Assembly: GCA_948567375.1 (NCBI GenBank)
Contig: OX419756.1
Span: forward strand, 30,456,333 to 30,520,332
Origin: Lunularia cruciata
Lineage: Eukaryota; Streptophyta; Marchantiopsida; Lunulariales; Lunulariaceae
Direction: 5' to 3'
DNA: 64,000 bases
Under the pieces are notes generated by a model. That model saw only the letters and a list, made by a program, of their open reading frames with translations, was not told where the DNA came from and made no database searches. Position numbers and translations under genes: made by a program. Each line of letters opens with the position of its first letter. Position 1 is the first letter of the stretch. Below, piece after piece: positions 1 to 46,520 of this stretch.

Positions 1-484
1 TCCCTTCAAAGCACTCAAATCCTTCCTATTGAAGGCAAAATAACTTGTGTAGCTCCTCAAGAACCTCCAAACTCTCTGTCTTTCCTCTCCTATAAGCTTG
101 GGTCCAAGATCTAGCTCCCAAGTATTCTCTGTAACTGTCCTAAGAGTGGAAGCCGTACTAACTAGCTGCTACACTAGGCCCTCAAGAGCAATTGTGTCAT
201 GCCTCCCACTACCAGAGGTCCAAACCTTTGTGTGAAAAACTCCCTCCACTCTAGCTTCAAGCTCCACACATCCTCTAGCAGCATCCCAAGTAGACCAAGG
301 GTGTAACCCAAGTAGCCCATACTCACCAGGATGGACTCCAAGTAGACCACTCTCCCTAGTAGCTATTGGTTGTGTCCCAAGAATACCATGTCCACTTGGT
401 ACATTGCTCCCAGCATGTGCCTGAATCATCTTGATAGGCATAGGGCTCACAAGTGTCTGAGTGGTGATTCCTATCAAGCACATT
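1..484 (-). pseudogene. Element A: linker downstream of the methyltransferase domain
   Basis: On the minus strand this continues from the methyltransferase C terminus (an IVSLGLAQQ-like stretch ends near 485) into a low-complexity Gly/Leu/His-rich segment at 513-169 with repeated GLLG(V/L)HP words. A charged stretch follows near 1-100 (an ERKDREFGG word). I see no domain. By position it should be the spacer between the methyltransferase and reverse transcriptase, but no reverse transcriptase motif is reached before the window edge. The frame is broken by several stops. Confidence 0.45.
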
Positions 485-1870
485 CTACATTGTTGTGCCA
501 AGCCAAGGCTCACAATCTAGGTCAAACAGTTTAGGGTCCATAGCTTGACCTAAAACTTGACGCCTAGATGCCTTTGACATTGTTGGAACAGCAGTAATAC
601 CAATGCAAAAACCCATTGCCCACTCTCTCTCTCTCTTTGGCATTGGGCTCCACCAATTGTTGTAACTATGAGAGTCCCAAACCAATCTAGGACCTTCCTC
701 TCAAAAAGCATGAGAGCTTGGGAAACTCATGAGTGTGGGAAAAGCGGCTTTGGCTGTCCAAATAGGTTCACCATTACCATAAATGACCTATCAGCCACTA
801 CCACCATTTGCAACTAACGCCCAATATCCAAGATATCATCAACAATGATGTCGTCTAGTCACTAAATCCCATCATAAGTGCATTATAGAACCTCTCTAGG
901 TAAGAGGTTTGTCCACCAAAGATGAAGACAATGAGCTCATGATCCTACTTTGGCTGCATCTAACAAATAGCAGGTCCCATCCAAGAATGGACTTGATGTG
1001 TACTCACCACCACTCAGATGTAAGAATCACCCATCAAAGGGATGTTCTCCAAAATGTAAGTTGGAGAAATGGAATGATGAACCTAGAGATGTTGTAGTAT
1101 CTGTAACATCTCCCAAAACACACCAAAATGAGGATCTTGAAGACCCAAACCTTGGCCAGCACGTGTATGTCTCTGACATGGCTATTCCAAAATCACTAAA
1201 TGAATAGGTCCCGTGTCTCTCCGGATCATGTGCCCCCAGTAAGGAAATGTTTGTTGGTAGGGCCCTCCAGTAAACCCTGACTGTCGACATTGGTAATAAC
1301 TCAAGATACCAATAAGCCAAGTGTGCCACATGATGTAGAGAGACTTGCCTAGCAATCTCATCTCTCTCTATATACAAGTACCTTTGTACTTGTATACCCG
1401 CCTATAGAACCACAACTAGTCCGGTGCTAATCCCACCAAACAACTCCAATAGACATACTCCCTCTATTGGATATTGCCAAGCAATGAGTCTGGTATCTAG
1501 AGATATCAAGGTAATCAACTTTGGAGGCTCATCCTCACACTCATCTCATGGTGATACAAAGGCTCCACTCTAAGCCTATTGCACCAACTGATATGCATGC
1601 TACTGCAATGCCTCCTTTGAACTCCACAATGGGACATCCAAGGTGGATGGACTGATCCCACTTGTACTCCAAATCTGAGTGATCTCCTCTAGTATTGGAG
1701 TATCCTCTGTATGTGCATTCCTCTCCAATAAGTCACTAGGCCAAGTAACTGCACAAGTGAAAGCTGAAATTGAATGCTAACATGGTCCCAAATTGTAGTA
1801 AGCCAAGACTGCCACTACTGAAGCATATTGGTAGACGACATACTCGTCCCTCACTTGACTACCAACCTGG
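485..1870 (-). pseudogene. Retrotransposon-encoded cytosine-5 DNA methyltransferase (decayed)
   Basis: A C5 methyltransferase transfers a methyl group from S-adenosylmethionine to cytosine. The motifs occur in the right order on the minus strand. Motif I (cofactor binding) is LELFGGISTGL near 1416-1449, followed by a QRYLYIERDE-like segment that would contact the cofactor adenosine. Motif IV, the catalytic Pro-Cys, reads PCQRHTRAGQGLGLQDP with PCQ at 1173-1181. Motif VI reads ILENIP (ENIP at 1038-1049). C-terminal motifs read REREWAMGF (about 607-630) and RRQVLGQAMD (536-565), equivalent to motifs IX-X. The Trp expected before PCQ is a TAG stop, and further stops and at least two frame changes interrupt the domain, so this copy is dead. 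The segment 1460-1870 joins it in frame to the protease (YR-PGW across X1). Which eukaryotic methyltransferase group it came from cannot be told without alignment. Confidence 0.85.
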
Positions 1871-2402
1871 TCTATTGTGGTGCCCACCTTTTTTGTTTTT
1901 TCTGTTTATTCTAGGAGAAGAAGTAAACAAAGAAAGTTGAATTGCGAAAGAAGGAATGGACGGAAGTGACTTTGGAGGAAATCCAAAGAAGTCGAGATTG
2001 GTTCTGATGATAGAGGTACTCAAGAGAAGGGAACAAAGAGAGAAGTCCAAAGAGCATTGTCTTTGGATCAAGAAGCAAAGGTCAATATGAAGATTGTCTA
2101 ACAACCTTGGTACGTGGCAAGAAAGTACACTTCAAGAAATGGCGGAGACAGAAGAAGCATGTCTTGATAGTGACAAGACAGCAACATGCAGAAGAAGGGG
2201 AGGTTGATTTTGAAATCAACTAAAGAATGATTGTAATTTGGGGTAATATAAAAGTGCAATTGCATAAGGACAAGTTGAATATGTCAAGTAGATTTCCAAT
2301 CCCTCTGAGTAGTCATCTTGTAGTAATGCGGGTCAAGAAGCCAATTGAGAGTGAAATTTTCTGAAATCCAAAAGGAGAAGGAATGTTTTCTAGTGCCATA
2401 GA

Positions 2403-4797
2403 ATGAGAGAGCAGATCATGGCAAAGAAGGTCACGGATGCTCTGGCAGTGCAAAGTTTTGCAATTTTTAGGTTAGATGTTGTAGCAAGGATTGAAGTCTT
2501 GAACTGACTTCGTATTACCTTTTTAGCATGGAACTGGAATTTCAATTTCCCAAGAGTCATGGCAAAGATAGCTGCCAGCAATTGTGAGGAGTGCTCCAAA
2601 GTCAAGGGAAAGAGAGGAAATCAGGGCGGATGGACTGAGTCAGATTGGAGGTTAGTGTTGGAGAAGGAAGCAAGAGAACCGATGGGGATCACTTTCTATT
2701 TGAAGTGTGATGTTGCAAAGGAGAAGGCGGAGATCCGAAATTTGTTCTTTGCTCCGCGTACAACAAATGCTTACAAGGTGGAGTCCTATTGGGACCTAAT
2801 TCAACAAAGTATCGTGGGACAATAATGGCCATGTTCAAACCAGAACAAATGACTTATGTGAACATGCAACAAGCAGTCTTTTTCCACCAAATGTTTGCAG
2901 GAGTGAAGGTGAACTAGGAAAAGTGTTTTCACCAATGAATGAGGCAGATGGTGGTCAATTGGAGAACAGGTTCACCTCCACATTATTTTGCACCGTTTGC
3001 AGCACACTTCTACTTCAAGTTGAACTTCTTGACATCAACGGAGAGGCATTGCATGGTGTCTCATTTCCATCCTGATTTGAGATAGGAGGCGGATGAAGAA
3101 GAGCAACAATATATAGCACACCAACAAGCTAGTGATGATCACTTCTTGAGGACAGGACAATGGAAGATGGAAGAAGTCACAAGTCCAAAGAAGAAGAAGC
3201 ACAGTAAACTCAAAGATGCAAAGTCACCTCCAGCACAACGAAAGACCCAAAGATTGGTTCTACAGAGTAAGAAGAGTATGAGAGAAGCACCGTCAAAAAC
3301 CAAGTCTAAAGGGGAGACAAAGTCTCAAGGAGAGGACTCAAAAGAAGACAAACTCACTTTACAAAGTGAGGAATCCAAAAGTGAGAGTGAGGAGGAACAT
3401 GAGGTTTAGCAAGAAGTTAGGGTGGGTGAAGTTTATGATGCAATGATTGACAGTGTATTAGGAAAGAAGAATCATTGCGTAGCCTTGGTTGTGGAAGAGA
3501 AGGGGGCTGAAAGATAGAAGGAGTATCCTATGGGGCGAAGTTTAGTAGGTAAGGAAGAAGGAAGCTTAGAAGCAATGTCTCTAAAGATACTAAGATCACA
3601 ACTTTGGCAGAAGGAGCCGATGGAAGAAGCAAAGTACGAAGACGGGGCCGAAGACAAAGAGAACTTTGGTGGAATACAATATCTATCAAAGGTTGTCACT
3701 CCATTGTTGGAACTGTTGAAGGAGCACCAGAAGGTAATTCCCCAAGATTGTATGAGGGTGATAAATGAGTTGCAGGTGGTGAAGTATCTGCTAGTTGAAG
3801 TAAAGGGTTTGCAGGAGCGCGTAGTCCAAAGAGACAAGGAAGTTGAAGAACTTTGGGTGGATGCAGTCTTGAAGAAGAAGACTTTCGAGAAGTTGCAAGA
3901 GAGTGTTGAGTCAAGAGGTAAGGAACTGCAGAAGCAAGCCAATGAACTGAAAGAGCAGGCAATGTTGCTGACCAAGATGAAAGAGGAGGTTAGTGATGTA
4001 CGCATTGAGAGTATTCATGTGAAGGCGATGGCCACAATAATGGAGCAAGAGTTGGAAAGCTTGAGGAAGAGCGCAGCCGGGAAGGATCAAGCATGGCAAA
4101 GAGACTTGGCAGTCATGCATCAAGAAGAAGAAAGATTGCATGAGCTGGTATGAACTGTTGAGTTATAGAGTTCACAGTATTTGGAGGAGAAGAAGATGCT
4201 TGCTGCTGAGTACAAAGATGAGTTGAAAATGTATCGCAAAGAGTTGAAGGCAGAGTGATCTTGAGGTTATGAGTCAGAATCAGAAGGAGAACTTGCAAGA
4301 AAGTTGCAGGCAATCTTGAGCACAAAGGTTGAAGGGAGATTGGAAGAAGCACGTCTACATGAGTTAAAGTTGCTTGTGCAGGAAACTCAAAAGAGAAAAG
4401 CCAAAGATGTGGATATGAACATTTTGCTGATCTGATTAAGGGAGCAAGAAGATCAAAAGATGTTACAAGTAGGAGACAATGTCAGTCTTAGATTAGATTT
4501 AGTCAAGTCAGAGTTAGAGTAAATCAGGAGTAGTGTGACAGAGGAGAGGAAGTCCAATGTTGTAGAAGTAGGAATTCAGGTGTCTTTGAACTTGTTATTT
4601 GAGACATTAGAGAAGAGTGGGTCGGGAGATAAGGAAGTAGATAGATTACCCATGACCTCAATTGTAGATTGTAGAGAAGAGATAGAAGAAATAGTAAAGG
4701 ATTTGGTAGAATCAAATATACCCAAAGAAGGAGAAGTAATAGGAAGATCATCGGGTTTGAAAGCCGATGAGGAGGTAGACATTGGATCGGGGTAGAA
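2403..4797 (+). pseudogene. X-family protein, unknown function (decayed ORF in X1)
   Basis: From ATG 2403 the frame reads to about 2825, then shifts once and continues in one frame from 2825 to 4797, broken only by stop codons (about 800 codons). The N-terminal third holds conserved blocks seen in all X copies: RLDVVARIEVL, ITFLAWNWNF, GWTESDWRLVL, a Cys-Asp-Val-Ala block, YKVESYWD, FFHQMFAGV, then PPHYFAPFAAHFYFKLNFL and SHFHPDLR. A basic Lys-rich stretch (about 3180-3310) and a Glu/Ser-rich acidic stretch (3310-3410) follow, then a long heptad-like coiled coil (about 3700-4400, e.g. KELQKQANELKEQA). I recognise no enzyme motif. A structural, Gag-like role would fit a globular N terminus with a coiled-coil tail, but that is inference. 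Confidence 0.7.
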
Positions 4798-4910
4798 ACA
4801 AATTTGAGATTTGAAGAGGTAGATATGAAGAGTTCTATTGTTATTTTGGATTTGCAGGTTAGAAGAGTTGTTGTAGAACGGTATTTTTGTAAGAACTGTC
4901 GTTTGCTTCA

Positions 4911-4920
4911 CTATTTAAGA
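4911..4920 (+). promoter_or_regulatory. Possible TATA box of X1
   Basis: CTATTTAAGA lies about 115 bp after the ORF and 678 bp before the 3' end of X1. The same word recurs at the matching distance in X2, X3 and X4, which supports function more than the motif itself does. The core is nearly palindromic, so direction is uncertain. Confidence 0.45.
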
Positions 4921-5594
4921 GTGGCATTCACAATGAATTGTTGTTCATTATTCATATTTTTTAAGATAGATAAAGTGAAGTGTTGTTTTCAATGCTCATC
5001 GCTTGAGCTTGATTCCGAGTATCAACTCTATGTCTGTGTTTGTGAGTGTTGGGAGAATTTTGAAGTGCAAGTCAATGTGTCTGTAGATGTTGGATTCCGT
5101 AGCCTTGATCTTCATTCTCTATGTTTGATCCTAAGTGAAGTGCAATTGAAGCAATGCCTTGATAGATCTGAGAGGAGTTGTAGTGTTGGTAGTATTCTAC
5201 ATTTGTGAGTGTAGCGCAAAGTTGATGTGAAGCAATTTAGATTGAGGAAGTTGTGCCTTCGGTGGAGGAGTAGAACACAATTTTGAGGCAAAGTTGTTTT
5301 CATAGTGAAGTGCTGTCTTTGGGAGAATCTGAATCATCACAATCAAGAGCTGTTCGGACAGAATTTGCTATGTTGTGATTAAGGAGTGTGTATTTGTGAC
5401 AAGTTGTCAAGATTGTGAGCTTGTTACTCTCTTCTGGGTGTAGTTTCTACTTGAGGGATTAAAGATGCAACCAAGAAGAACTGAAATTGTTACTTTGCTT
5501 TGTATTTGGAAATTTCTGAATCGTATCTCTGCGGGAACAAACTTTACTTACCCAATTAGCCCCAAAGTGATATTTTACGGGTTGTCACATCTAT

Positions 5595-5933
5595 AGGAGG
5601 TTGTCTTCTCCCAATAGTCAATATTGAAACCCATGGGGTATAGCATTGCTCCACCAACTAACACATCATACGACTCAATTATTGTTGCAATAGCCTGAGC
5701 TCTCACCACCAAGCTATCAATTGGATGACCAGGCTAAATCTGAACAACTAGCTCTCCATGTGTGATGTAAAATGTTGAACCACCTCATAGAGATGTCTAG
5801 ATCTGAAATGGACACCTCTCCACATTGGTCTTATGTACCTCTAGACCGCCAATCCCAGCCTTCCCCAATATAAGAGGTTTTGCACCAGAGTCTAATAAGA
5901 CTCTCTATGGTGTATAGACCTTCCCTAAAGGTC
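5595..5933 (-). pseudogene. Element A: retroviral-type aspartic protease
   Basis: The minus strand reads VLLDSGAKPLILGK with the catalytic LDSGA at 5881-5895, then a flap-like TFYITHGELVVQ and ESYDVLVGGAMLYPMGF, ending DYWEKTTSYR at the X1 junction. This is the pattern of a pepsin-like retroviral protease that cuts the polyprotein. Stops are present (one just before VLLDSGA), so it is inactive here. The reading frame passes directly into the methyltransferase part across the X1 insertion, so protease and methyltransferase were made as one polyprotein in the ancestor. Confidence 0.75.
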
Positions 5934-6299
5934 CTACCAAACAGAAAATCCCCCTGTGTTTATCCAATAGGATAACACCATGTGTGTACCGTCCTCTCTC
6001 AAGGCCATCCTAGTTAGCAACTCCTCCAATCTAGCCGCTATTGCATGCCATAAACCATTGGTTGTTAAGTAGATCCCATGCTCCTCAACCAAGTTAGCTC
6101 CACTATCAACCACCTCTACTCTAGTAGTAGGAACCACATCATCCCTACTCTCACAAAGCATGGTAGCCAATCTCAACACTGGGGTTGGGTCAACTCCCAA
6201 TGTACACATATCACTGGCTGAAAATAAGAGATAGTGCATAATTAGTTTAGGGACACCCAACATCATGCCAGACTCAACCTATGTAGTAGCAAGTGGTTG
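5934..6299 (-). pseudogene. Element A: Gag-protease linker
   Basis: An open stretch of 110 codons (6266-5934) lies between the Gag zinc knuckles (beyond X2) and the protease. It contains LATMLCESRDDVVPTTRVEV and LWHAIAARLEELLTRMALR, an acidic linker and a helical segment. No catalytic motif is visible. Its right end abuts the X2 insertion (GGTTG, 6295-6299). Confidence 0.55.
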
Positions 6300-6727
6300 T
6301 GTGGTACCCATATTTTTCATTTTTTAAGTTTTGTTCTATTTTGAAGAAGAAGTGTATGGACAAAGTTGTATTGAACCCAAAATAACATTGGAAGGAGAAG
6401 AACTATGTCTTTGCTTTGTAATCCAAAGAAAAGTGACTTTATGTCAGATGCAAAGTACTCAGATTGGATCTATCAAAGTTTAACCCAAAGTAAGGAGACT
6501 TTGCCTCGGGGTGATCAACCCAATGTGCAAACAACATAACAGATTTCCTTTGGATTGGAAATTCAAGAATGGTACCGCACAAAAAATGGCCAAGGCACAA
6601 GTGAGAGAAATTAATAGTGACAAGAGAAGTGCATGCAAAAGGTGTCACTTCTTGGTAGACAATCTTTCAAAGAAAGATTGAGAAATGTTGTACTATAAAG
6701 TCAGGTTTTGAATCAAGAATGAGATGA

Positions 6728-9211
6728 ATGACAAGTGATTTTCCTCTGCCTTTGCGGAGTCATCCTAAGGGCGACCAGGATAGAGGAGTGGTAGTGCGTG
6801 AAGTTGTGAAGAAATCAAAGGAATTGAGAGTTCTAAGTCCAAGGGATGGGAGAATTGTCTTGCATAACCTAGTGATTAGGAGGTTAGATGTGATGGCTTG
6901 CATCAAAGTTCTTAGTAAACTTCACATTACTTTCCTTGCATGGAATTGGAACTTGAGTTTTCCAAAATTTATGGTATAGATTGCAGCCAGTAAATGTATA
7001 GATGGGTTGGCAATAGTGGAGAAAAGAGGCAATCCGGCTCAATGGACAGAGTTGGATTGGAAGTTGGTGTTAGGAAGAGAGAGTGGAGAGGAGCATGGAG
7101 CCATGTTCTTGGAGAAGAGAGAAGGAGCAAAAGGAACCCAAGAGATTAGAGATTCTTTCACCTCAAAGCACATGAAGAATGGGTACAAGGTGGAGACATA
7201 TTGAGACCCGGTGCAAAGAAGCATCATAGGTGCAATGATAGCCTTGTTCAAATCCAAGTGCACCACCTATGTGATGAAGCACTAGGCGGTGTTCTTCCAC
7301 AAGATGTTTGCAGGACAACCGATCAATTGGGTGAAGTGCCTTTATCAGCAAACAAGGCAAATGGTGTTGAATTGGAGGACGGTGACACCTCCACATTACT
7401 TTGTGGCTTTTGTAGCACACTTCTACCTCAGGTTGAACTTGTTAAGCAGTGAGGAGAAGAAGAAGATTGTCTTGCATTTCCATCTTGATCTATGACAAGA
7501 AGCCAATGATGAGGAGCAATAGTACATTTGGCAATTGAGAAGTAATGACAATCACTATGCAAGAACGGGACAAGATCAAAAGACGGTTGTACCCCTACTA
7601 GGCAAGAAGAAGAGAAGTAGACTTGAGGTGGGGAGCTCACCATTACAGCCCCAAAAATTAAGAAAAATTGGGCAGATAGAAGAGAAGCAAGTCCAGCGGA
7701 TTGCACCTACAGAGGAAGTCAAATTAGAAGAAGAAAAAGAGTCCTTGTCAAAAAGATCAGAGGAAGAAGAGGTGGAGTTAACCCTACAAAGTAAAGAATC
7801 CAATGAAGAGAGCGCGGGTGAACCCAAGGTAAAGCAAGATCAAGAGAAGGAGATGTCTTTGCAAGAAGAAATCAAGCGGCAAGATGCGGATGAAGAAATT
7901 ATGGCCGAGTAAGCAATTGAGGCAGAAGAAGGAGTGGTGGTGGAGCCAAGGCAGTACACACTAGAATGTGCAAAGGCGGCCCAGAAGATCATAAATTTGG
8001 ATGATGAAGAGAGTTTGGCAGACCAAGAGTCATTGACAATACAAAGATCCCAACTTTGTATTAAGACCTTGGGCTTGGAAGGAAGACATCTGATCACTGT
8101 AGTTGTTGAAGAGAAGGTAGTAGAAGAAGCAAGATGCAAGGAAAAAGAGTTTCTTTGGGATGTGGTATGTCCATTTTTATTGTAGATGGATAAGAAGAAG
8201 AAGGAGATGCAACACGGACATCTTAATGTACATACAGTGTTATAGGAGCTGGAGAGATTAGAGACTGAGAATTGGAAGTTGTAGGAGAACCTGAGTAGAG
8301 GAGAAGAGGAAAGGGAAATTTTGTGAGTAGATGCAATATTGTAGAAGATCAACAAGAATCTGCAAGAGAAGTTTGAGAAGCAAGGAAGAGAGTTGGCGAT
8401 GAGAGTGAAGGAGGTTACTTAAGAAAGACTTTGGGTGGAGAAGTTATAAGCCAAAGTGAAGGTGGAGCAAGAGAAGGGCAAAGAAATGGTGGAAACTAAG
8501 GAAGAATAGTTTGGCACATTTGCCATAAGGTAGAAGAGAAGACAATAGCCTAGCAGCGGGAATTTGCTAAGCAAGATCAAGAAGAAGGAAGGCAGAGAGA
8601 TTTGGTGCAGATATTAGAGGCAAAGATTGACTAGTATGTGAAGGAAATGGATGATGAAAGCTATGATGGAGGAAGAATGACAGAGGAAGCAATCAGAGGA
8701 TTCACTTGAAGGAGCGATCGTGGAATTGAAGGTGAAGTTAACTATGGAAGCTAAGGTGAGAATGGAGGAATTTTGGTTACACAAATTATGATTGTTGGTG
8801 CAAAAGACGCGCAGTAAGAATGTGAAGAACAAGGATTTGAATGCCTTGTTGATCAATCTTAGGACTCGGATTGATAGGAAGATGTTAGATGTAGAGAATA
8901 ACATTTCTATTAGACTCGGACTGATTAAGTTAGAGTTAGAAAGTCTTTGGAATATTGTGCATATCAGACCCAAAGCAATAGAAACAAGAGTGCAGGTGTT
9001 TTTGGAGTTGGCACTTGACATTCTAGAGAAGAGTGGATTGGAAGATAACAAGTTAGATACGATAACCACTAGTACAGTTATAGTTTGTAGTGAAGTGGTA
9101 GTAAAAATAGCAACAGACTTAGTAGAATTAGATAGACCCAAAGTACAAGAGATGAAGAGGTTTTATTCAATATTGGGAGCCAAATTGGATGTAGACATCC
9201 TATTGGATTAG
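6728..9211 (+). pseudogene. X-family protein, unknown function (single-frame ORF in X2)
   Basis: All recognisable segments from 6728 to 9211 lie in the same frame, 828 codons with stop codons but no frameshift, so this copy shows best that family X encodes one protein. Order: N-terminal VRRLDV-type block (IRRLDVMACIKVLSKL), ITFLAWNWNLSF, WTELDWKLVLGRE, YKVETY, AVFFHKMFAGQPINWVKC, then PPHYFVAFVAHFYLRLNLL near 7388-7444. A Lys/Arg-rich segment follows (7590-7700), then a strongly acidic Glu-rich segment (7700-7910), a coiled coil (about 8190-8760) and a C-terminal block with IDRKMLDVENNISIRL. Most stops replace Gln or Trp codons. No domain of known function is recognised. Confidence 0.75.
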
Positions 9212-9328
9212 GAAAATTTTGGATAGGAAGAGGCCGATATGAAGAGGTGGTTTGTCATTTTGGATCTATAGGTTGATAAAATTGTTAGGAAACAGTTTAG
9301 GGAGTTAGATAACTATCAAGTGCTCAGC

Positions 9329-9338
9329 CTATTTAAAG
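9329..9338 (+). promoter_or_regulatory. Possible TATA box of X2
   Basis: CTATTTAAAG lies 118 bp after the ORF end and 689 bp before the 3' end of the element, matching X1, X3 and X4. Confidence 0.45.
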
Positions 9339-10018
9339 GAGGCCTTCATAGTAAAATGTTGTTTAGTATTCATTTTCTTGAGAATGGATAAAGCAAAGTT
9401 ATATGAAGCAGTGTTCATCACTTGAGCTTAATTTTGAGTATCAGTTTTGTGTTTGTGTTTGTGTTTGTGTTTTGAATGTTGAGAGCAATTCAAAGTGCAA
9501 GTCAATGTGTTTGTTGGATGTCAAATTCCACAGCGGTGATCTTCATTCTGTTTGTTTGATCCTGAGTGAAGTGCAATTAAAGTAATGCCTTGACAAATCT
9601 GAGAGGAATTGTAGTGTTGGTAGTATTTTGCATTTGTGAGTGCAATGTTGAGTTTATGTGAACCAATTTTGATCAAGGAAGTTGTGCCTTTAGTGGAAGT
9701 GTGGAACACAATTCTGAGGCAAAGTTTTTCTATAGTGAAGTAGCCATTTTTGGGAGAGACTGAATCATCACAATCAAGATTGTTTGGAAAGATTTGAATG
9801 AGTTGTGACTGAGGAGTGTTAATTCATAATGAGGTTGCAAGTCAGTGCTTGTTACTCTCTTTTGGGTGTGGTTTCTACGTAAGAGATTAAAGAAGAACTC
9901 AAGAAGAACTAATTTGGTTACTTTACTTCATATCTGGAAATTTTTTACTCATATCTCTATGGGAACAAACGTTACTTACCTAACTACCATAAAAAGTGAT
10001 ATTTGTCGTGTTCTCACA

Positions 10019-11432
10019 GGCTGACTAGTAGGTAGTCTGTCATGCATCCCATCACTACCTACCACACTTGCATTAGGATGTATAGGAGCCATAGATGATC
10101 ACTAGTGTGACCAAATCTGTGGCAATGCACACACTGCCTCTATGCTAGTTGTGATGCACCAAAGGGATCAGGTCCGTTGCCTTGAGTGCACTCTCTCCTA
10201 TGGTGAGGTCCACCACAAGTCCAACAAGCAACACCACTACTCACTGGTTGTTGCTGACCCAAAAATGAAGGTAAGGGTCTAGCTCCACTAGGCCCTCTAC
10301 TTGCTCCATAAGATTTGGGCTGTCCACCATGTCCTCAAAAACCAATTGGGCGTGGTGCACTCTGCTACACTCTAAAAGAAGTCACAATTGTGGATGAGGT
10401 CTCCCTACCAAATCTAGATGTCACCACTCTCTCCTCCATCATGTTGACCTCAATACACTTTGCCAAAACAAAGACCACCGCCAAAGTAGGCAAAGTAGTT
10501 TGGAACAATGTAGCATCACAAACTCTATGTTGCAACTCCCTATCCAATATCCCACACCAAAACTAGATTTCTTGAGCCTCAATAACTCCCTAAGCAAAAC
10601 TGATTAGCCACCTTGCATAGGTTCTCTCCAGTCTTCCGTTGGAACTCTTGCAAGCTCCTCAGCTTGTTTGTCCGCACTCCTTGGTAGTTCTACCTCAAAC
10701 ATTGGAAGAACTCCACCATGGGGTTAAACCCCAATACTACACCACCTCTTATAGCAGCACCTCCACTTGTAGTAGCATTATCTCCAGCTAGTGCACCTCC
10801 ACTAGCTCTACCAATGCTACTTGAGCTAAAACTCATGGGTACCGCCGATCTACCCCTAGAAATTGAGCCTAAATTAATGGAGACATAGTTTGGAGACCAA
10901 TACTATCTCCGTAGCTCAAATCTCCTCCAAGTGAGCTCTCCTAAACTCATGGTAGTCATCTATTAGTAGACCCTCCAAATGCTGAAACAAGCCTTTCCAT
11001 GCCATGAAAGGTGTGAACAAAGTCAGGTTTGGAATCTACTACAGATCACACCAACTATCAAACTCTTGGATGAAGTCATCCAACTCAATGGTACCCACTA
11101 TACCCAACTCAATGCCTAGGGTCTTTGGAGGCCCCATAAATCTTTTCCATGTCCCACAACAACGGTGCGGACACACCAAGTGCACTCTTAACTGAATCAG
11201 CTCCTATGTCAAACTCCAACCTCCCACATGCCAATACCAACATAACACTATCCACTAATGTAAATCTAACTTAGACAACTACACTAGGGGAAAGGATGAC
11301 CTAGAACTTGCCATCATAACATGTACTCTCACGGTCTGCATGTCATCACTTCTTCCCTCATCAAAGATAAACAAAGGTAGTCTGATTGGTCATCACTCCA
11401 GCCTCACCATTGAGAGCACACCAGAGCACCAA
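10019..11432 (-). pseudogene. Element A: Gag with two zinc knuckles
   Basis: On the minus strand a retrotransposon Gag core reads FFQCLR*NYQGVRTNKLRS followed by LQEFQRKTGENLCKVANQF (about 10730-10560). Two nucleic-acid-binding knuckles follow. The first is CWTCGGPHHRREC (10226-10188, CX2CX3HX4C) and is complete. The second is CVHCHRFGH (10133-10107), where the last Cys of the CCHC set is lost. Gag packages element RNA into particles. Several stops and frame changes show that the copy is dead. It continues beyond X2 into 6299-5934. Confidence 0.7.
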
Positions 11433-12558
11433 TGCTCTAAATTCAGGGCACCTCATACAAACGTAGTGCAAAAATAGGAAGTAGAGAATGGAGGAGGTCC
11501 AATCACAAGAAATCTAAACAAAAACCGCTCATAAAGTAACACAGGATTGACTTTGCCACCATTTGGCATTTGACATTATAGGAGTTCCCATCTACGTCCT
11601 AAGCTACCAAGATCACCAAGAATGAGATCAAATTGCCTCTCCTAGTCAAAGCTATAAGTGGATAGATAATAGTGAGCCAATCACTAGAAAAAAAAAGTGA
11701 GGATAGACTACTTGGCTAGGGCACCAATTTAGGAACCAGAGATCTAGAGGTCAAACCCTGTTGCAAACAATCTAGCAAGTAAGCAGATTTTGCCAAACAA
11801 TGACCAAGATCTACTCTAAACTAGCTAGCTTCATGCCAGCAAGCTGGCTTGCTAGGCCTTCATATCCTCTCATAGCCCATAGCACTATGCATTAAATCCT
11901 CTAAATGCCTGCTCAAAAATTGCTTCTCTTTGCTCAAAATTTGGCCAGTGCTTCCGCACACCGTCTATCTCACTGCCAAATCTACATCAACCAATGAGCT
12001 TTTGCAAACCAAGGAAAACCTAAACTTTGATTGAGCTACCAATGATTCACCAAGCTTGGAGATACCACCAACACTCACAATTCTTGCACTTGATTTCCCC
12101 TTGACCTCACTTCTATAATGTAATAATTTTGTTTCCACCACTCAAATCAATTCAACTCAAATCAGTACTTGATCTGTCACTCTATAAACTGCCAAAAATT
12201 GGGCACTAATTACAATCAAGCCACACCCACTCTTGCTAAGAGAATCCATGTGATGCTCACCAACCTATGTCCACCATGGCTGGGAACTCAAAGGCTCAAC
12301 ATCAGAGAAGCAAGCTCTCTAGAGCTGCACTTTGAAAGTATACCCCTAGACTTGGGCTAGGTCTGAAACCCTAATTGTCCCATTGACGGCACATCCAACG
12401 GTGCAAATGGTGCAAAGTGACTGTGGGCTCCACCATGAAGTTAGTACAACAAACACCAAATCTGACCGTCAGAAAGTAGTCTACAAGTAATTGCTAAAAT
12501 ACCTCTAACCACTATCACTGCAACTTTAGTGTCCAAGCAATCTAGATGTGATATTACA
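11433..12558 (-). repeat. Probable 5' LTR of element A
   Basis: On the minus strand the sequence starts TGTAATATCACATC at 12558, a typical Ty3/gypsy LTR start, and ends ...TTAGAGCA at 11433, just before a TTGGTGCTCTGGTG stretch that could be a decayed primer-binding site and before Gag. The partner 3' LTR would be outside the window, so the borders cannot be confirmed by LTR comparison. No coding sequence is seen in it. Confidence 0.4.
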
Positions 12559-13019
12559 AATAACATGACAAAATTCATATCCATAAGCTTTGAGAGTAAG
12601 AAACTGAGAGAGAATAGAGGCTTATTAGACTAAGGATAACATGATAGACTTGCTTCACCAAGATTGGGAGGAAGGAGATCTAAGACCAAGGAGTTATGTA
12701 AGGTTTGTGGAAAAGAAGGACTTCCAAACAACCATGAGTGTAATGGAGTACTTTAGGAGACCTTGGTGAAAGATCTTGGAGAGAGTCTTAATATCATGAT
12801 GAAGAAACTAACCTCATTAAATAATTTTCAAAATTAGTGATGGAGTTAATCTTTCAATTGATAAATAAAGTATCCATGAGATTTTGATTTACATACACTC
12901 TAGGATTTGATTATGCATTAGAAATCTTGGAGTTAGCTAAGCCTTTGTTATTTCATATGGTTGACTATTCTCAAATAATGTCAGTCATGTTTTACTCTAT
13001 TAGTTATAGGGAAAAAGAT
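12559..13019. other. Unassigned spacer between elements A and B, with an orphan Cys/His motif
   Basis: The plus strand at 12697-12741 reads CKVCGKEGLPNNHEC, a short zinc-binding-like pattern, followed by about 30 open codons with one stop. The rest is AT-rich with no gene. This could be a scrap of another retroelement Gag. No boundary features are visible. Confidence 0.3.
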
Positions 13020-18950: not shown

Positions 18951-19510
18951 TTGTGGTACCCACATTTTATTTTTTTTAAGTTTTAAAGAAGAAGTGCATT
19001 GGTAAAGCCGAAGGAAGGCTAAACAAGGAAGAAAGGTGAAGAATTATATGTTTGGCATAAACCCAAAGTTGACCTTGGGTCAAGTCCAAAGGACTTGGGT
19101 TGGATAAGATAAAATACAAAGACAAGGACTTTGTATTGAGAAGTGCGACTTGATCCAAAGACCCTATAACAAACTTCTTTGGGTTCCACCAATTAAGAAA
19201 ATACATGAGAAGAAAGTGACTACCTCGAGACCAAGATGTTCTTGAAAGTGACAGGAAACAACTTCAAAGCATTGGTGAGTGACACAGAGCAGCAACTGAA
19301 GAATGATTGATCAGCAAGGGACTATAAAATTGGATTTCTATGAGGAAGCACTGCAATCTCTAGATGTTATCCTGTTCTTATTTAGAGTCAATCCAAGGGA
19401 ATGCAAATTTTGAATACGCAAGAGGAGTGGGTTAGAATCTTGGATATGATCTTCATAGGCACAGAGTGAGGAAGCACACAATGGCCCCAAAAGTGAGTAA
19501 GTAGAGTGCA

Positions 19511-21255
19511 GTGAGAGGTCTTGCAATGTGTAGATTGGATGTAGTGGCAAGGATTGAGGTCTTATTGAGACTTTGTATCACTTTTTTGGCCTGGAATTGG
19601 AATTTTAGCTTTCCAAGTTTCATGGCAAAGATTGTTGCAAGTGATTGCAAGGATGGGCTGAACTACAAAGGAAAGAGAGGAAATAAGGCTTGATGGACAA
19701 AGTTGGATTGGAGATTAGTCTTGGGTAGAGAAGCAGGAGAGGTATGGAGTACCACCTTCTATTGGAAGTGTGATGCGTTGGAAGAAACTGCCAAGGTTAG
19801 GAATTCCTTTAATCAACCGTGCACAAAGAATAGGTATAAGGTGGATAGTTATAGAGACCCAGTGCAAGGAGGGATTGTGAGCACAATGATGATGATGTTC
19901 AAGCCAGAGTAAACCACCTGTGTCACAATGCAACATACAATATTCTTTCACTAGATGTTTGTGAAAGAAGTGGTAGATTGGACAAAGTGTCTGCACCGGC
20001 GGGTGGGGAAAATGATTACGGGTTGGAGAATGGATATACAACCATATTACTTTGTACCCTTTGTAGCTCAATTCTACTTTGGGCTGAATCTGCTGACTTT
20101 GGAGGAGAGAAGTAGAATGCATTCTCACTTTCATCCGGAACTGTGCAAGGAGGCAAATGCGGATGAACAATATTACATGGAGTGGGTTTGCAAGGGAGAT
20201 GATTATTACATGAAGAGTGGGAAGGAGAGGATAGTAGCAGTCAACCTCTCCATGCTAAAAAATTGAAGTAGACACAAAGGATGAATTACGTCAATACATC
20301 AACAAAAGATGCAAAAACCTAATCTAAAGCCAATGTTGGTGAAAGTGAAGGAATCAATTCCGGGGGAGGAATCAAAAGGAGAAACTGCATCAAAGGAAGA
20401 AGCCTTGGGAGGAGAAGAAGAGTTCACATTATGAAGTGAGGAATCAAGCAGTGGTAGTGAAGGAGAAGCTGAAGTTCAACAACAAGAGAAAGAGTTGTGG
20501 AAGCAGAGCAGACAAGTCCAGAGATGTCCATAATGATGCGGGGGTGTGAGAAGGAAGAAGAAGGTGTCTTGGTATGTCCAAGAGGTGCCAAGGCAAAGAG
20601 AAGTGCTCAAGATGTTGCCGTTGGACCAATTGAGGTTACCACCAAGACAAAGGAGAGCTTAGATGAAAAAACTTTGAAGATACAAAGATCATATCTTTGG
20701 GTAAGGTGCCAGTTGAGGAGTTACCTGCCAAAGGGAAAGATGGTAGAGCAACAACAGGCAGTGTGAAAGAATGGAGTATCTGTCAAATGTAGTATGTCCC
20801 TTGTTGGTATTTTTGCAAAAGAAGGAAAAGATGGCAAGTGCTGACCTGGATATGAAGGATGAATTAGCCATCGTGACAAAGTGGAGTGCGTAGACCTCAT
20901 TGTTGAGAAGTAAGCTAATGCGACTAGAAATGGAAGCCAAAGAACTTTGGGTAGAGGCAATTCTTTGAAAGATTACGAAAGACTTTGTAGTGAGATAAAA
21001 TTAAAAAGGAAGTCAGATTAGAAGAAGTAGGAGTGCAAGTATCTTCAAATCAATTACTTGAGACATTAGAAAAGAGTGGGTCAAGTGAGAAAGATGTAGG
21101 TAGTGCATCCATGATCTCAATTGCAGTTTAGAGTGAAGAAGTAGTAGAAATAGTGGAAGATGTAGTAAAATTAGGTAGACTCAAAGATGGAGAAGTGATA
21201 GGAGGATCATCGAGTTTGGAAGCCAAGGTCGAGGTTGACATCAGATCGGATTAGA
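19511..21255 (+). pseudogene. X-family protein (decayed ORF in X3)
   Basis: 19511-20266 is one frame with the conserved N-terminal blocks: CRLDVVARIEVLLRL, ITFLAWNWNFSF, LDWRLVLGREAGE, YKVDSYRDPVQ, KEVVDWTKCLHR, then YYFVPFVAQFYFGLNLLTL and SHFHPELC. A frame change near 20270-20490 is followed by an acidic stretch and a short helical part (20497-20766). Near 21000-21250 the C-terminal block reads KSGSSEKDVG...EVDI, similar to X1 4600-4790. Stops are frequent. Confidence 0.65.
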
Positions 21256-21369
21256 AACAAATTTGAGATTTGAAGAGGTAGATATAAAGATGTGCATTGT
21301 CATTCAAATCTATAAGTTGGTAAAGTTGTTGTAGAACGGTATAGTTGTTAGTAATGATCAATTGATTTA

Positions 21370-21379
21370 CTATTTAAAG
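21370..21379 (+). promoter_or_regulatory. Possible TATA box of X3
   Basis: CTATTTAAAG lies 680 bp before the 3' end, the same distance as in the other copies even though X3 has a large internal deletion upstream of it. Confidence 0.45.
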
Positions 21380-22055
21380 GATCATTTGTAGTCTTATATT
21401 GTTTATTATTCCAAATATCTGGAGATAGATAAAGCAAAGTGTTGAGTTTAGTGCTTGTCACTTGAGCTTAATTCCGAGTACCAAATTTGTGTTTGTGTTT
21501 GTGAGTGTGTGGAGAATTTTGAAGTGAAAATCAGTGTGCTTGTTGGATGTTGGATTTTGTAGCCTCGATCTTCATTCAATATGTTTGATCTTGAGTGGAT
21601 AGCAATCAAAGCAATGCCTTGACAGATCTGAGAGGAATTTTAATGTTGGTAGTATTCAGCATTTGTGAGTGCAGCGTAGGGTTGATGCAAAGCAAGGAAG
21701 GAAATCAATCAAGGAAAGTGTGCCTTCAGTGGAGGAGTGGAACACAATCTGAGGCAAAGGTGGTTTTCAATGAAGTAGTCATCTTCAAAAGGATCTAAAT
21801 CATCACAATCAAGATTGTTCAAAAAGATTCAAAAGATTTGTGATTAATGAGTGTTAATTTGTGACAAGACTGAAAGTTAGTGCTTGTTACTCTCTTTTGG
21901 GTGTAGTTTCTACCTAAGAGATTAAAGAACTCAAGAAGAACTATATTGTTACTTTTTGCTTTGTATTTGACCACTTCTGACTTGTATCTCTATGAGAACA
22001 AACTTTACTTACCTGATTACCATAAAAGTGATATTTTCCAAGTTGTTACAGTAGT

Positions 22056-44051: not shown

Positions 44052-45020
44052 TCATGCGTCTAATAAGAGAAGTCCAGAGTGCACAACTTGATAGAAAAAT
44101 TCTTGAGAACTTGAAAGATGTGGTGGATGAGTTTCAAGATGTCTTTCCCAATGATCTACCCTCAAAGAGTAGATCATAAATTGAGACACTCTTGGGGGAG
44201 ACACCTCCTTGTAAGGCCCCATATTGCCAATCACCTCATGAGTTGGAGGAGTGTAAGACTCAAATTGAGGAGATGTTGCAGAAAGGGTTCATCCAACCTA
44301 GCATATCACCATATGGAGCTCTTATCTTGTTTGTGAAGAAGAGGGATGGAACAATGCGCATGTGCATTGACTATCGGGGTCTTAATCAACAAATAGTGAA
44401 GAACAAATACCCCTTACCTTGCATGGATGACCTGTTCGATCAACTCCATGGAGCAAGATACTTCACCAAATTAGACTTGCAAAGTGGATACAATCAAATC
44501 TGAATTGCAGAAGATGATGTGTACAAAACTGCCTTTTGAACCAGGGATGGCCACTTTGAGTATCTGGTGATGCCTTTTGGCCTCACCAATGCACCTACCA
44601 CTTTCATGAGTCTAATGAATGACATATTTCATCCATACTTGGATAAGTCTATTATCGTCTTCTTGGACTACATCTTAGTATACAGTAACATGATGATAGA
44701 ACACAAACAATATCTACAAGAAGTCCTCCAGATTCTAAGATAGAATTGATTGTATGCCAAAATCTCAAAGAGCGAGTTTGGCAAGTCTGAAGTAGACTAC
44801 TTTGGGCATAGAGTAAATGCAAAGAGCATTCAAGTATTAACAGATAAAATTAAGGTCATTCAAAATGGAGTGCCCTAGAAGATCAAACTCAACTCAAGAG
44901 CTTCTTGGAGTTGATGAGATTCTATTGTAGATTTATCAAGGACTTCTCCAAGGTTGCACAACCTTTAATGGCACTACTTGGAAAGGGGAAGAAGTAGACA
45001 TGTGGAACCGCACAAGAGTT
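44052..45020 (+). pseudogene. Element E: gypsy reverse transcriptase
   Basis: [58 protein letters not shown] and [13 protein letters not shown] are typical. After a stop come [17 protein letters not shown] and FLDYILVYS near 44660, where YxDD reads LDY: the second catalytic Asp is Tyr. The C-terminal part has LYAKISKSEFGKSEVDYFGH. Three or more stops. Confidence 0.88.
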
Positions 45021-45450
45021 GGCCTGTCAAGAATTGAGAGCCACCTTGCTACATGCACCAATCTTGAAGTGGTATGACCCAAAACATCCAATCAAGTTGG
45101 CTATAGATGCATCAAGCGTAGCAATAGGAGCACTCCTACAACAAGAGTGGCATGACGGATGACATCCAATTGCATATTTCTCTCAAAAGTTGTTACCAAT
45201 AGAGGGCAACTACCACACCACAGAACAAGAAGAGTTGGCTATCATTCTTGCGACCAAGCATTGGAAGCATTATTTGGGCAAGAAGGCATTTGTAGTAGAG
45301 AAAGACCATAAACCTCTAGTCTACCTCAAGATGCAAAAGGATCTAACTCATTGCCAGATTTGGTAGGCAGAGTGGTGACAATGATTCAACATGAAAATCA
45401 CCTACATGGAAGGTAAAAAGCAACTTGTAGATGCATTCACCCGCATGCCA
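45021..45450 (+). pseudogene. Element E: RNase H
   Basis: KLAIDASSVAIGALLQQEW, PIAYFSQKLLPIEGNYHTTE, EELAIILATKHWKHYL and EKDHKPLVYLK give the expected Asp, Glu and Asp residues. Stops sit after WHDG and near QIW. Confidence 0.85.
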
Positions 45451-45599
45451 ATGGCAAACAACTTGGTGGTAGAGGTTAAGATTAACCCTAAATTTTGGCA
45501 AGAGATTCTGGCTTTTACAAAAACTGATCTACAAATTGTAGAGGCACAATCATCCAAAGGTGTCACTAGCACCCAAGGACTCACCTTTTGTGATGGCAG

Positions 45600-46520
45600 A
45601 TTATGGATCCCAAATGTCCCATAATTATGCACCACCATTCTAGCAGAATATCATGATTTGGCTATTGTAGGTCATGTCGGAATAAACAAGACCTTGGAGG
45701 TAGTCCAACGCCATTACTATTGGCCCAAGATGAGCAACAACGTGATGGACTATGTGCGCAGTTGCCTACTTTGTCAACAAAACAAAGCTTCTAATCAAGC
45801 TCCTACAAGGCTCCTTCAACCTCTCCTCACTCTTGTCTAACATTGAGAATAGGTGAGTATGGATCTCGTTTGTGAATTACCCAAGACCACCTGAGGGTTT
45901 GACTCCATTATGGTCTTTGAGGATCGGCTCAACAAAATGATTCATGTACGCCCTACCACCAAGGATGTGACCGCCCCACAACTAGCTCAATTATACTTAG
46001 ATGCAATCTTCTTTCACTATGGCTTGTCTTGAGTACTCATCACCGACAGAGGTACTCAATTCACTAGTTTGTTTTGGCAAACACTTTTTGGTTTCTTCAA
46101 AACCAAGTTGGCCATGTCCACAGCTTACCACCTACAAATAGATGGACAAACAAAGCGGGCTAATTGCACTATTGAAGATATGTTACGAAGTTTCACCTTA
46201 GAAGAGCAAGAGAGGTGGGACACCCTACTCTTGTTGGTGGAATTTGCTTACAAAAATTCAATGAATACATCCACCCAGGTCACTTTGTTCTTCTTCATGT
46301 ATGGTGAGCATCCCTTCACACCTTCTAGCTTGATGAAGATCCATCTTGTGGCTACCAAGGTCATGCAATCAACACATCTATTTCTAGAATCCAACAAGGT
46401 GTGGAGAGTGCCAAGCATAGATTACAAATTGTTCAAAATTGACAAAATCAATATGCTGATGCACACCATAGGCACATGGAGTTCAATGTTGGGGATCAAT
46501 TACAGCTATTGACAACCAAC
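45600..46520 (+). pseudogene. Element E: gypsy integrase
   Basis: The zinc-binding HHCC domain is intact: GHVGINKTLEVVQRHYYW and SCLLCQQNK (45670-45785). In the core, SMDLVCELPKT and LITDRGTQFTS keep two Asp residues. QIDGQTKRANCTIEDML replaces the third catalytic Glu by Lys. The C-terminal open stretch ends at 46512. Confidence 0.88.

Follow-up and report, generated by a model that had tools for sequence, protein, structure and literature searches.

Organization of the element

We analysed a 64,000-nucleotide stretch of the genome of Lunularia cruciata (assembly GCA_948567375.1, contig OX419756.1, positions 30,456,333 to 30,520,332 of the forward strand), here called the window, one end of which is occupied by the remains of a retrotransposon with a cytosine-5 (C5) DNA methyltransferase. 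Positions 1-11104 on the minus strand very probably represent, with a probability that we put at roughly 0.85, the 5' portion of a defunct Ty3/gypsy-type copy, the Gag-Pol of which included a DNMT3-type C5 methyltransferase between the protease and the reverse transcriptase (RT). Read on the minus strand, the decayed order is Gag, protease, methyltransferase and a linker toward RT at the window edge, and the copy has been split by two later 3.7-kb insertions. It spans from the window edge to 11104, wider than the positions given in a preliminary description of this DNA that had been made from the letters alone. The layout was placed by tblastn of two related proteins, P0041 (Marchantia polymorpha Mp_4g09160, 1278 aa) and P0049, against the window:

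11104-10080, minus strand: Gag with two CCHC zinc knuckles (P0041 residues 16-351 in three frames; 73%, 49% and 46% identity; E = 8e-74)
about 6300-10018, plus strand: insertion 2, of the same family as insertion 1 (possible decayed target duplication GGTTG/GGCTG)
6000-6299, minus strand: spacer between Gag and protease, a weak match (P0041 503-601, 29% identity, alignment 6305-6000, 33.9 bits)
6003-5590, minus strand: aspartic protease domain (LLDSGAKPLILGK; SYDVLVGGAMLYPMGF), 50% identity to P0041 601-740
1876-5589, plus strand: insertion 1, later than the element and not part of it (TG...CA ends; TCTAT flanks at 1871-1875 and 5590-5594)
1462-1875, minus strand: region between protease and methyltransferase, colinear with relatives (P0041 740-759 at 1873-1814, 773 onward from 1773)
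490-1461, minus strand: decayed DNMT3-type C5 methyltransferase domain, five pieces in three frames with several stops
217-489, minus strand: spacer after the methyltransferase, with an HPWSTWD stretch common to relatives (inside the P0041 alignment 1773-217)
1-168, minus strand: end of the methyltransferase-RT spacer and linker into RT (WELDLGPKLIGEERQRVWRFLRSYTSYFAFNRKDLSALKG at 120-1; tblastn with P0049 680-735, 39% identity, E = 5.6e-6)

Both a Gag with a CCHC knuckle and an aspartic protease, which are features of Ty3/gypsy elements, were found, and the window is colinear with P0041. The first zinc knuckle of Gag reads CWTCGGPHHRREC (10229-10188), the second CCHC knuckle is decayed (CVHCHRFGHTSDH), and the DSGA stretch of the protease lies within 5934-5800 on the minus strand. 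Identity to P0041 was 55% at 1873-1814 and 37% at 1773-217, the latter in an alignment with frameshifts that runs through the region before the methyltransferase, the methyltransferase itself and the spacer behind it. Given that residue 740 of P0041 matches both position 5590 and position 1873, the protease and the methyltransferase adjoined each other before insertion 1 arrived. On the RT side the evidence in the window consists of the pre-RT linker; among the relatives, RT and RNase H precede integrase in P0063, P0064 and P0066, and RT precedes integrase in P0057. Rfam (at the gathering threshold) and tRNA scans of the window gave no match.

Methyltransferase motifs and decay

The preliminary description had named a series of methyltransferase motifs on the minus strand in a definite order, and all of them were present in that order. 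They are spread over the five pieces, with LLELFGG in 1461-1210, PCQ and ENIP in 1214-948, AKVGS*AHCLHLWW in 966-820, FPTLMSFPSS in 775-704, and both REREWAMGF and RRQVLGQAMD in 700-497. We take these to be motifs I, IV, VI, VIII and IX-X, and the order of the C5 methyltransferase motifs I, IV (PC), VI (ENV), VIII and IX-X is accordingly found in the window. The chance level was determined from 200 dinucleotide shuffles and from a control sequence (6401-9900 plus 11301-64000). A 400-residue methyltransferase query from P0041 scored 186 bits against positions 1-1900 (shuffle maximum 26.9, control 21.2) and a query from P0001 scored 180 bits (shuffle maximum 26.9, with 197 of the 200 shuffles giving any match; control 22.3).

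The window copy is dead and cannot be active. In 89 non-gap pairs from alignments with seven overlapping relatives, taken together, its stops face arginine 28 times, glutamine 15 times and tryptophan 13 times; the alignments cross out-of-frame stretches, and the pattern is such as C-to-T decay would give.

The enzyme is of the DNMT3 type, as DNMT3A/B come first among the solved structures whether sequence, profile or fold is compared. When the first piece of the methyltransferase was compared alone, all 29 PDB matches were DNMT3A, 3B or 3C (best E = 0.0037), and the second piece alone matched five other C5 methyltransferases weakly (E = 0.57-1.2) and no DNMT3. The read-through methyltransferase gave 33 PDB matches, 29 of them to DNMT3 (best E = 3.5e-5) and the other 4 unrelated and weak. 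Profile and fold comparison of the relatives likewise placed DNMT3A/B first, and the fold of P0001 was closest to DNMT3 enzymes; no DRM or DNMT1 chain was present among the best 50 fold matches listed, which does not amount to a test against DRM or DNMT1.

Relatives and their architecture

Two protein searches yielded 69 relatives of the methyltransferase (39 + 30). The 39 matches of the read-through methyltransferase were obtained among 620 candidates, and the best of them was P0001, with 54% identity over 100% of the query (E = 4.9e-94). The named hosts are Marchantia polymorpha, M. paleacea, Calypogeia fissa, Sphagnum fallax and Closterium, and many of the database names are "hypothetical" or "unnamed". 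When the domains of the 69 relatives were compared by blastp (E up to 1e-4), the methyltransferase stood alone in 34, and in 35 it shared its polypeptide with other retroelement domains. The order Gag-protease-methyltransferase-RT, or any subset of it, was found in 29/69, in six of which the protease precedes the methyltransferase and RT, RNase H or integrase follows it. The family comprises unbroken Gag-protease-methyltransferase chains in liverworts, a moss relative (Sphagnum, known from a gene model that lacks some parts) and more distant relatives in a charophyte alga.

These chains bear on several claims of the preliminary description. Its central one, that a retrotransposon here carries its own C5 methyltransferase, is borne out by relatives that hold Gag, protease, methyltransferase and RT in one chain, and the RT or integrase expected next to the methyltransferase is part of the same chain in several of them. 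The claim that the methyltransferase is joined in frame to the protease and the Gag knuckles is true of the relatives, where these form one polypeptide, but not of the window copy, which lies in three frames with stops and with inserts between the parts. The check it had proposed with the Pfam profile PF00145 failed for the window copy: Pfam-A gave no methyltransferase, protease or RT match in seven window pieces or in the read-through methyltransferase, the only signals being below threshold (zinc knuckle, E = 0.63; Prok-RING, 0.021; TraL, 3.6). It succeeded for the relatives, as PF00145 was above the cut-off in 9/10 of them in one scan and in 5/7 polyproteins in another. For these seven polyproteins Pfam agreed with the domain comparison, except that PF00145 was not matched in P0057 and P0063; no Gag or protease Pfam match was obtained in the seven. 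Scans of viral and prokaryote contigs for DNA of the relatives returned nothing apart from two weak matches, of 24 and 34% identity.

A second architecture, in which the methyltransferase lies between RNase H and integrase, was also observed. The order RT-RNase H-methyltransferase-integrase (or any subset) occurs in 6/69 relatives (P0063, P0064, P0066, P0067, P0068 and P0069), with both sides seen in three (P0063, P0064 and P0066), and a PHD finger follows the integrase in P0063, P0064, P0067 and P0068.

Phylogeny and constraint

In a methyltransferase tree of 38 rows, the window row lay near the liverwort and moss rows and joined no supported subgroup. Twelve more distant rows (among them Closterium and the RNase H-methyltransferase-integrase kind) were grouped without it, with a support of 92/100 that is under the 95/80 mark. 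DNMT3A is the sole outside row and sits on a long branch; several branches are long, which makes finer placement unsafe.

The catalytic cysteine is kept in all 32 rows that have residues at that position, and motif VI is kept in 36/38. When relatives were compared with Marchantia P0041, 9/11 matched in both protease and methyltransferase, and the methyltransferase was the more alike of the two in 7; the exceptions, P0057 and P0017, lack parts of the methyltransferase. This pattern among the proteins suggests that selection acts on the methyltransferase.

A variant of motif IV was seen in P0027, P0028, P0063 and P0064, which have DCQ or ECQ in place of PCQ, so that the proline usual before the catalytic cysteine is replaced; the consensus of alignment A3 likewise reads GWECQG there.

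Possible role of the methyltransferase

In plants, cytosine methylation is one of the main brakes on transposons, and it is therefore paradoxical for an element to bring a methyltransferase of its own. Our leading guess, to which we give somewhat less than even odds, is that the enzyme would be made as part of Gag-Pol, packaged and freed by the protease, and would then place cytosine methylation on the element's own double-stranded complementary DNA (cDNA), either while reverse transcription is under way or shortly after it. A new copy would in that case enter the genome already marked, and the mark could either protect it against being sensed or edited, or allow the host to silence and so tolerate it. 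We favour this pathway because the methyltransferase is located inside Pol, because its catalytic residues are kept, and because the SymbioDIRS-Dnmt3 enzymes were active in yeast (de Mendoza et al. 2018, PMC5890265).

Several points weigh against our reading of the locus and of its enzyme. No RT, integrase or long terminal repeat (LTR) of this copy was found inside the window, where RT would fall beyond base 1, and two primer-site patterns fitted 11001-13000 no better than with 3 mismatches of 12. Residues of motif VI are lost in 2/38 rows, and the constraint comparison was made on the proteins of relatives. The KnitGypsy enzyme was inactive in yeast, a result reported as inconclusive (PMC5890265). 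Finally, the low CpG observed/expected ratio of the methyltransferase stretch (0.14 in 1-1870) is no evidence on self-methylation, given that the background is similarly low (0.16 in 12000-64000 and 0.18 in the whole window, which is AT-rich).

It is hardly credible that the methyltransferase is a host DNMT3 gene, or a processed copy of one, brought by chance insertions to lie beside unrelated retroelement remains. The copy in the window lacks an intact reading frame, and a moss and gymnosperms do have host DNMT3 genes (PMC6453930), but the protease and the methyltransferase are colinear on either side of insertion 1, where its target duplication lies, and the same order occurs in one chain in the 29 relatives. 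On the grounds of this colinearity and of single-chain relatives such as P0041 and P0049 we rejected that origin. Arrival by horizontal transfer from a bryophyte or an alga, instead of by descent, is improbable. In its favour, the Gag is 73% identical to that of Marchantia over 62 residues in spite of its decay. Against it, Marchantia and Sphagnum Gag have 49% identity over 300 columns, a distance that is overstated because the Sphagnum gene model lacks some parts, and the window row falls in no supported subgroup.

Explanations that accept an element-borne enzyme differ in what it would do. The benefit could be restraint, with self-marking lowering transposition and harm and methyltransferase-bearing lineages persisting as a result, which we consider unlikely. 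The silencing of plant transposons by cytosine methylation is in line with restraint, and the idea is raised in the Discussion of PMC5890265; however, self-limitation would be hard to sustain by selection among competing copies. A role on the element's RNA, as was raised for LINE-borne enzymes (PMC5890265), or as a non-catalytic nucleic-acid-binding part of Pol, is quite unlikely in view of the kept catalytic cysteine and motif VI and of the DNMT3-like fold of P0001.

Comparison with known systems

The kind of element is already known, and what is new is the hosts, from which no earlier description of it was found in the literature searched. Elements with cytosine methyltransferases have been reported from one charophyte and from dinoflagellates (PMC5890265), and the nearest published kind is KnitGypsy-Dnmt3 of Klebsormidium nitens. 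Like the element described here, it is of the LTR Gypsy type and its Pol chain includes a Dnmt3-type enzyme that is not rearranged, but its host is a charophyte alga and its repeats are described as DIRS-like (PMC5890265), while no repeats of the window copy are seen. No row named Klebsormidium was present among the matches listed. SymbioDIRS-Dnmt3 and SymbioLINE-Dnmt of dinoflagellates are likewise retrotransposon-borne cytosine methyltransferases, of the Dnmt3 type in the DIRS case, but belong to other retroelement classes (tyrosine recombinase and LINE) and other hosts (PMC5890265).

Among host enzymes, the DNMT3 genes of non-flowering plants (Yaari et al. 2019, PMC6453930) have the same type of catalytic domain but carry a C-terminal DUF3444 and lie outside any Gag-Pol chain. 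Animal DNMT3A/DNMT3B are the closest solved sequences and folds; they differ in that the relatives found here have no PWWP match (17 scanned by Pfam) and are joined to retroelement domains. Plant DRM enzymes are DNMT3-derived and match P0001 residues 44-170, but their motif order is rearranged whereas here it is linear.

According to a 2019 article (PMC6338049), elements that bear an adenine or cytosine methylase occur in stramenopiles, in red and green algae and in charophytes and are missing from land plants, such as tracheophytes, and the article bases an argument on this absence. The Marchantia and Calypogeia proteins contradict that absence, with the Sphagnum gene model in support. Retrotransposon-embedded DNMT3 in streptophytes is mentioned in PMC12344493, which cites the 2018 paper; the words methyltransferase and methylase are absent from the main text of PMC10508981, on plant LTR elements, and the available parts of PMC10952607 and PMC9477723 describe host enzymes. 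No land-plant member was described among the matches listed in the literature searched, the scope of which left out most subscription journals, preprints and Repbase reports.

It is possible, rather than probable, that these elements form a land-plant-wide Ty3/gypsy family that has borne a DNMT3-type de novo methyltransferase from early streptophytes onward and survived into a seed plant, with the enzyme at two sites in Pol (protease-methyltransferase-RT, and RNase H-methyltransferase-integrase, the latter with a PHD finger). If so, an enzyme class that is lost as a host gene in flowering plants would have been preserved and disseminated by genome parasites. Marchantia, as a laboratory plant, allows a direct test of what such an enzyme does in an element.

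Other retroelements in the window

The window contains nested retroelements. The 3.7-kb family that split the copy has matches at 1876-5589, 6300-10018 and 19508-22050 on the plus strand and at 52315-49156 on the minus strand. The clearest copy ends in TG...CA and is flanked by a 5-bp target duplication. Within insertions 1 and 2 no internal direct repeats of at least 40 bases were found, and the open frames of the family (e.g. 3518-4153) appear coiled-coil-like by eye. The family perhaps consists of very long solo LTRs or is non-autonomous.

A fairly intact copia element lies at 17298-14470 on the minus strand, with open frames of 191, 228 and 268 residues. Among the best 120 of the 7356 matches of the 268-residue frame (8000 candidates scored), the named ones are nearly all seed-plant elements: identity to seed-plant and unnamed elements was 43-63%, and the named rows comprise angiosperms, rows labelled PITA_ (presumably Pinus taeda), one Phytophthora and one pseudoscorpion, with no named bryophyte. 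In the copia tree the window row is the neighbour of a group containing the PITA_ rows (SH-aLRT 91), a placement that does not settle the matter. Taken by themselves, the copia matches made a seed plant, perhaps a gymnosperm, the likely though unproved source of the DNA. Two other gypsy-type RT-integrase stretches, at 44189-46338 (plus strand) and 60203-58155 (minus strand), are about 22-32% identical to the methyltransferase-bearing family.
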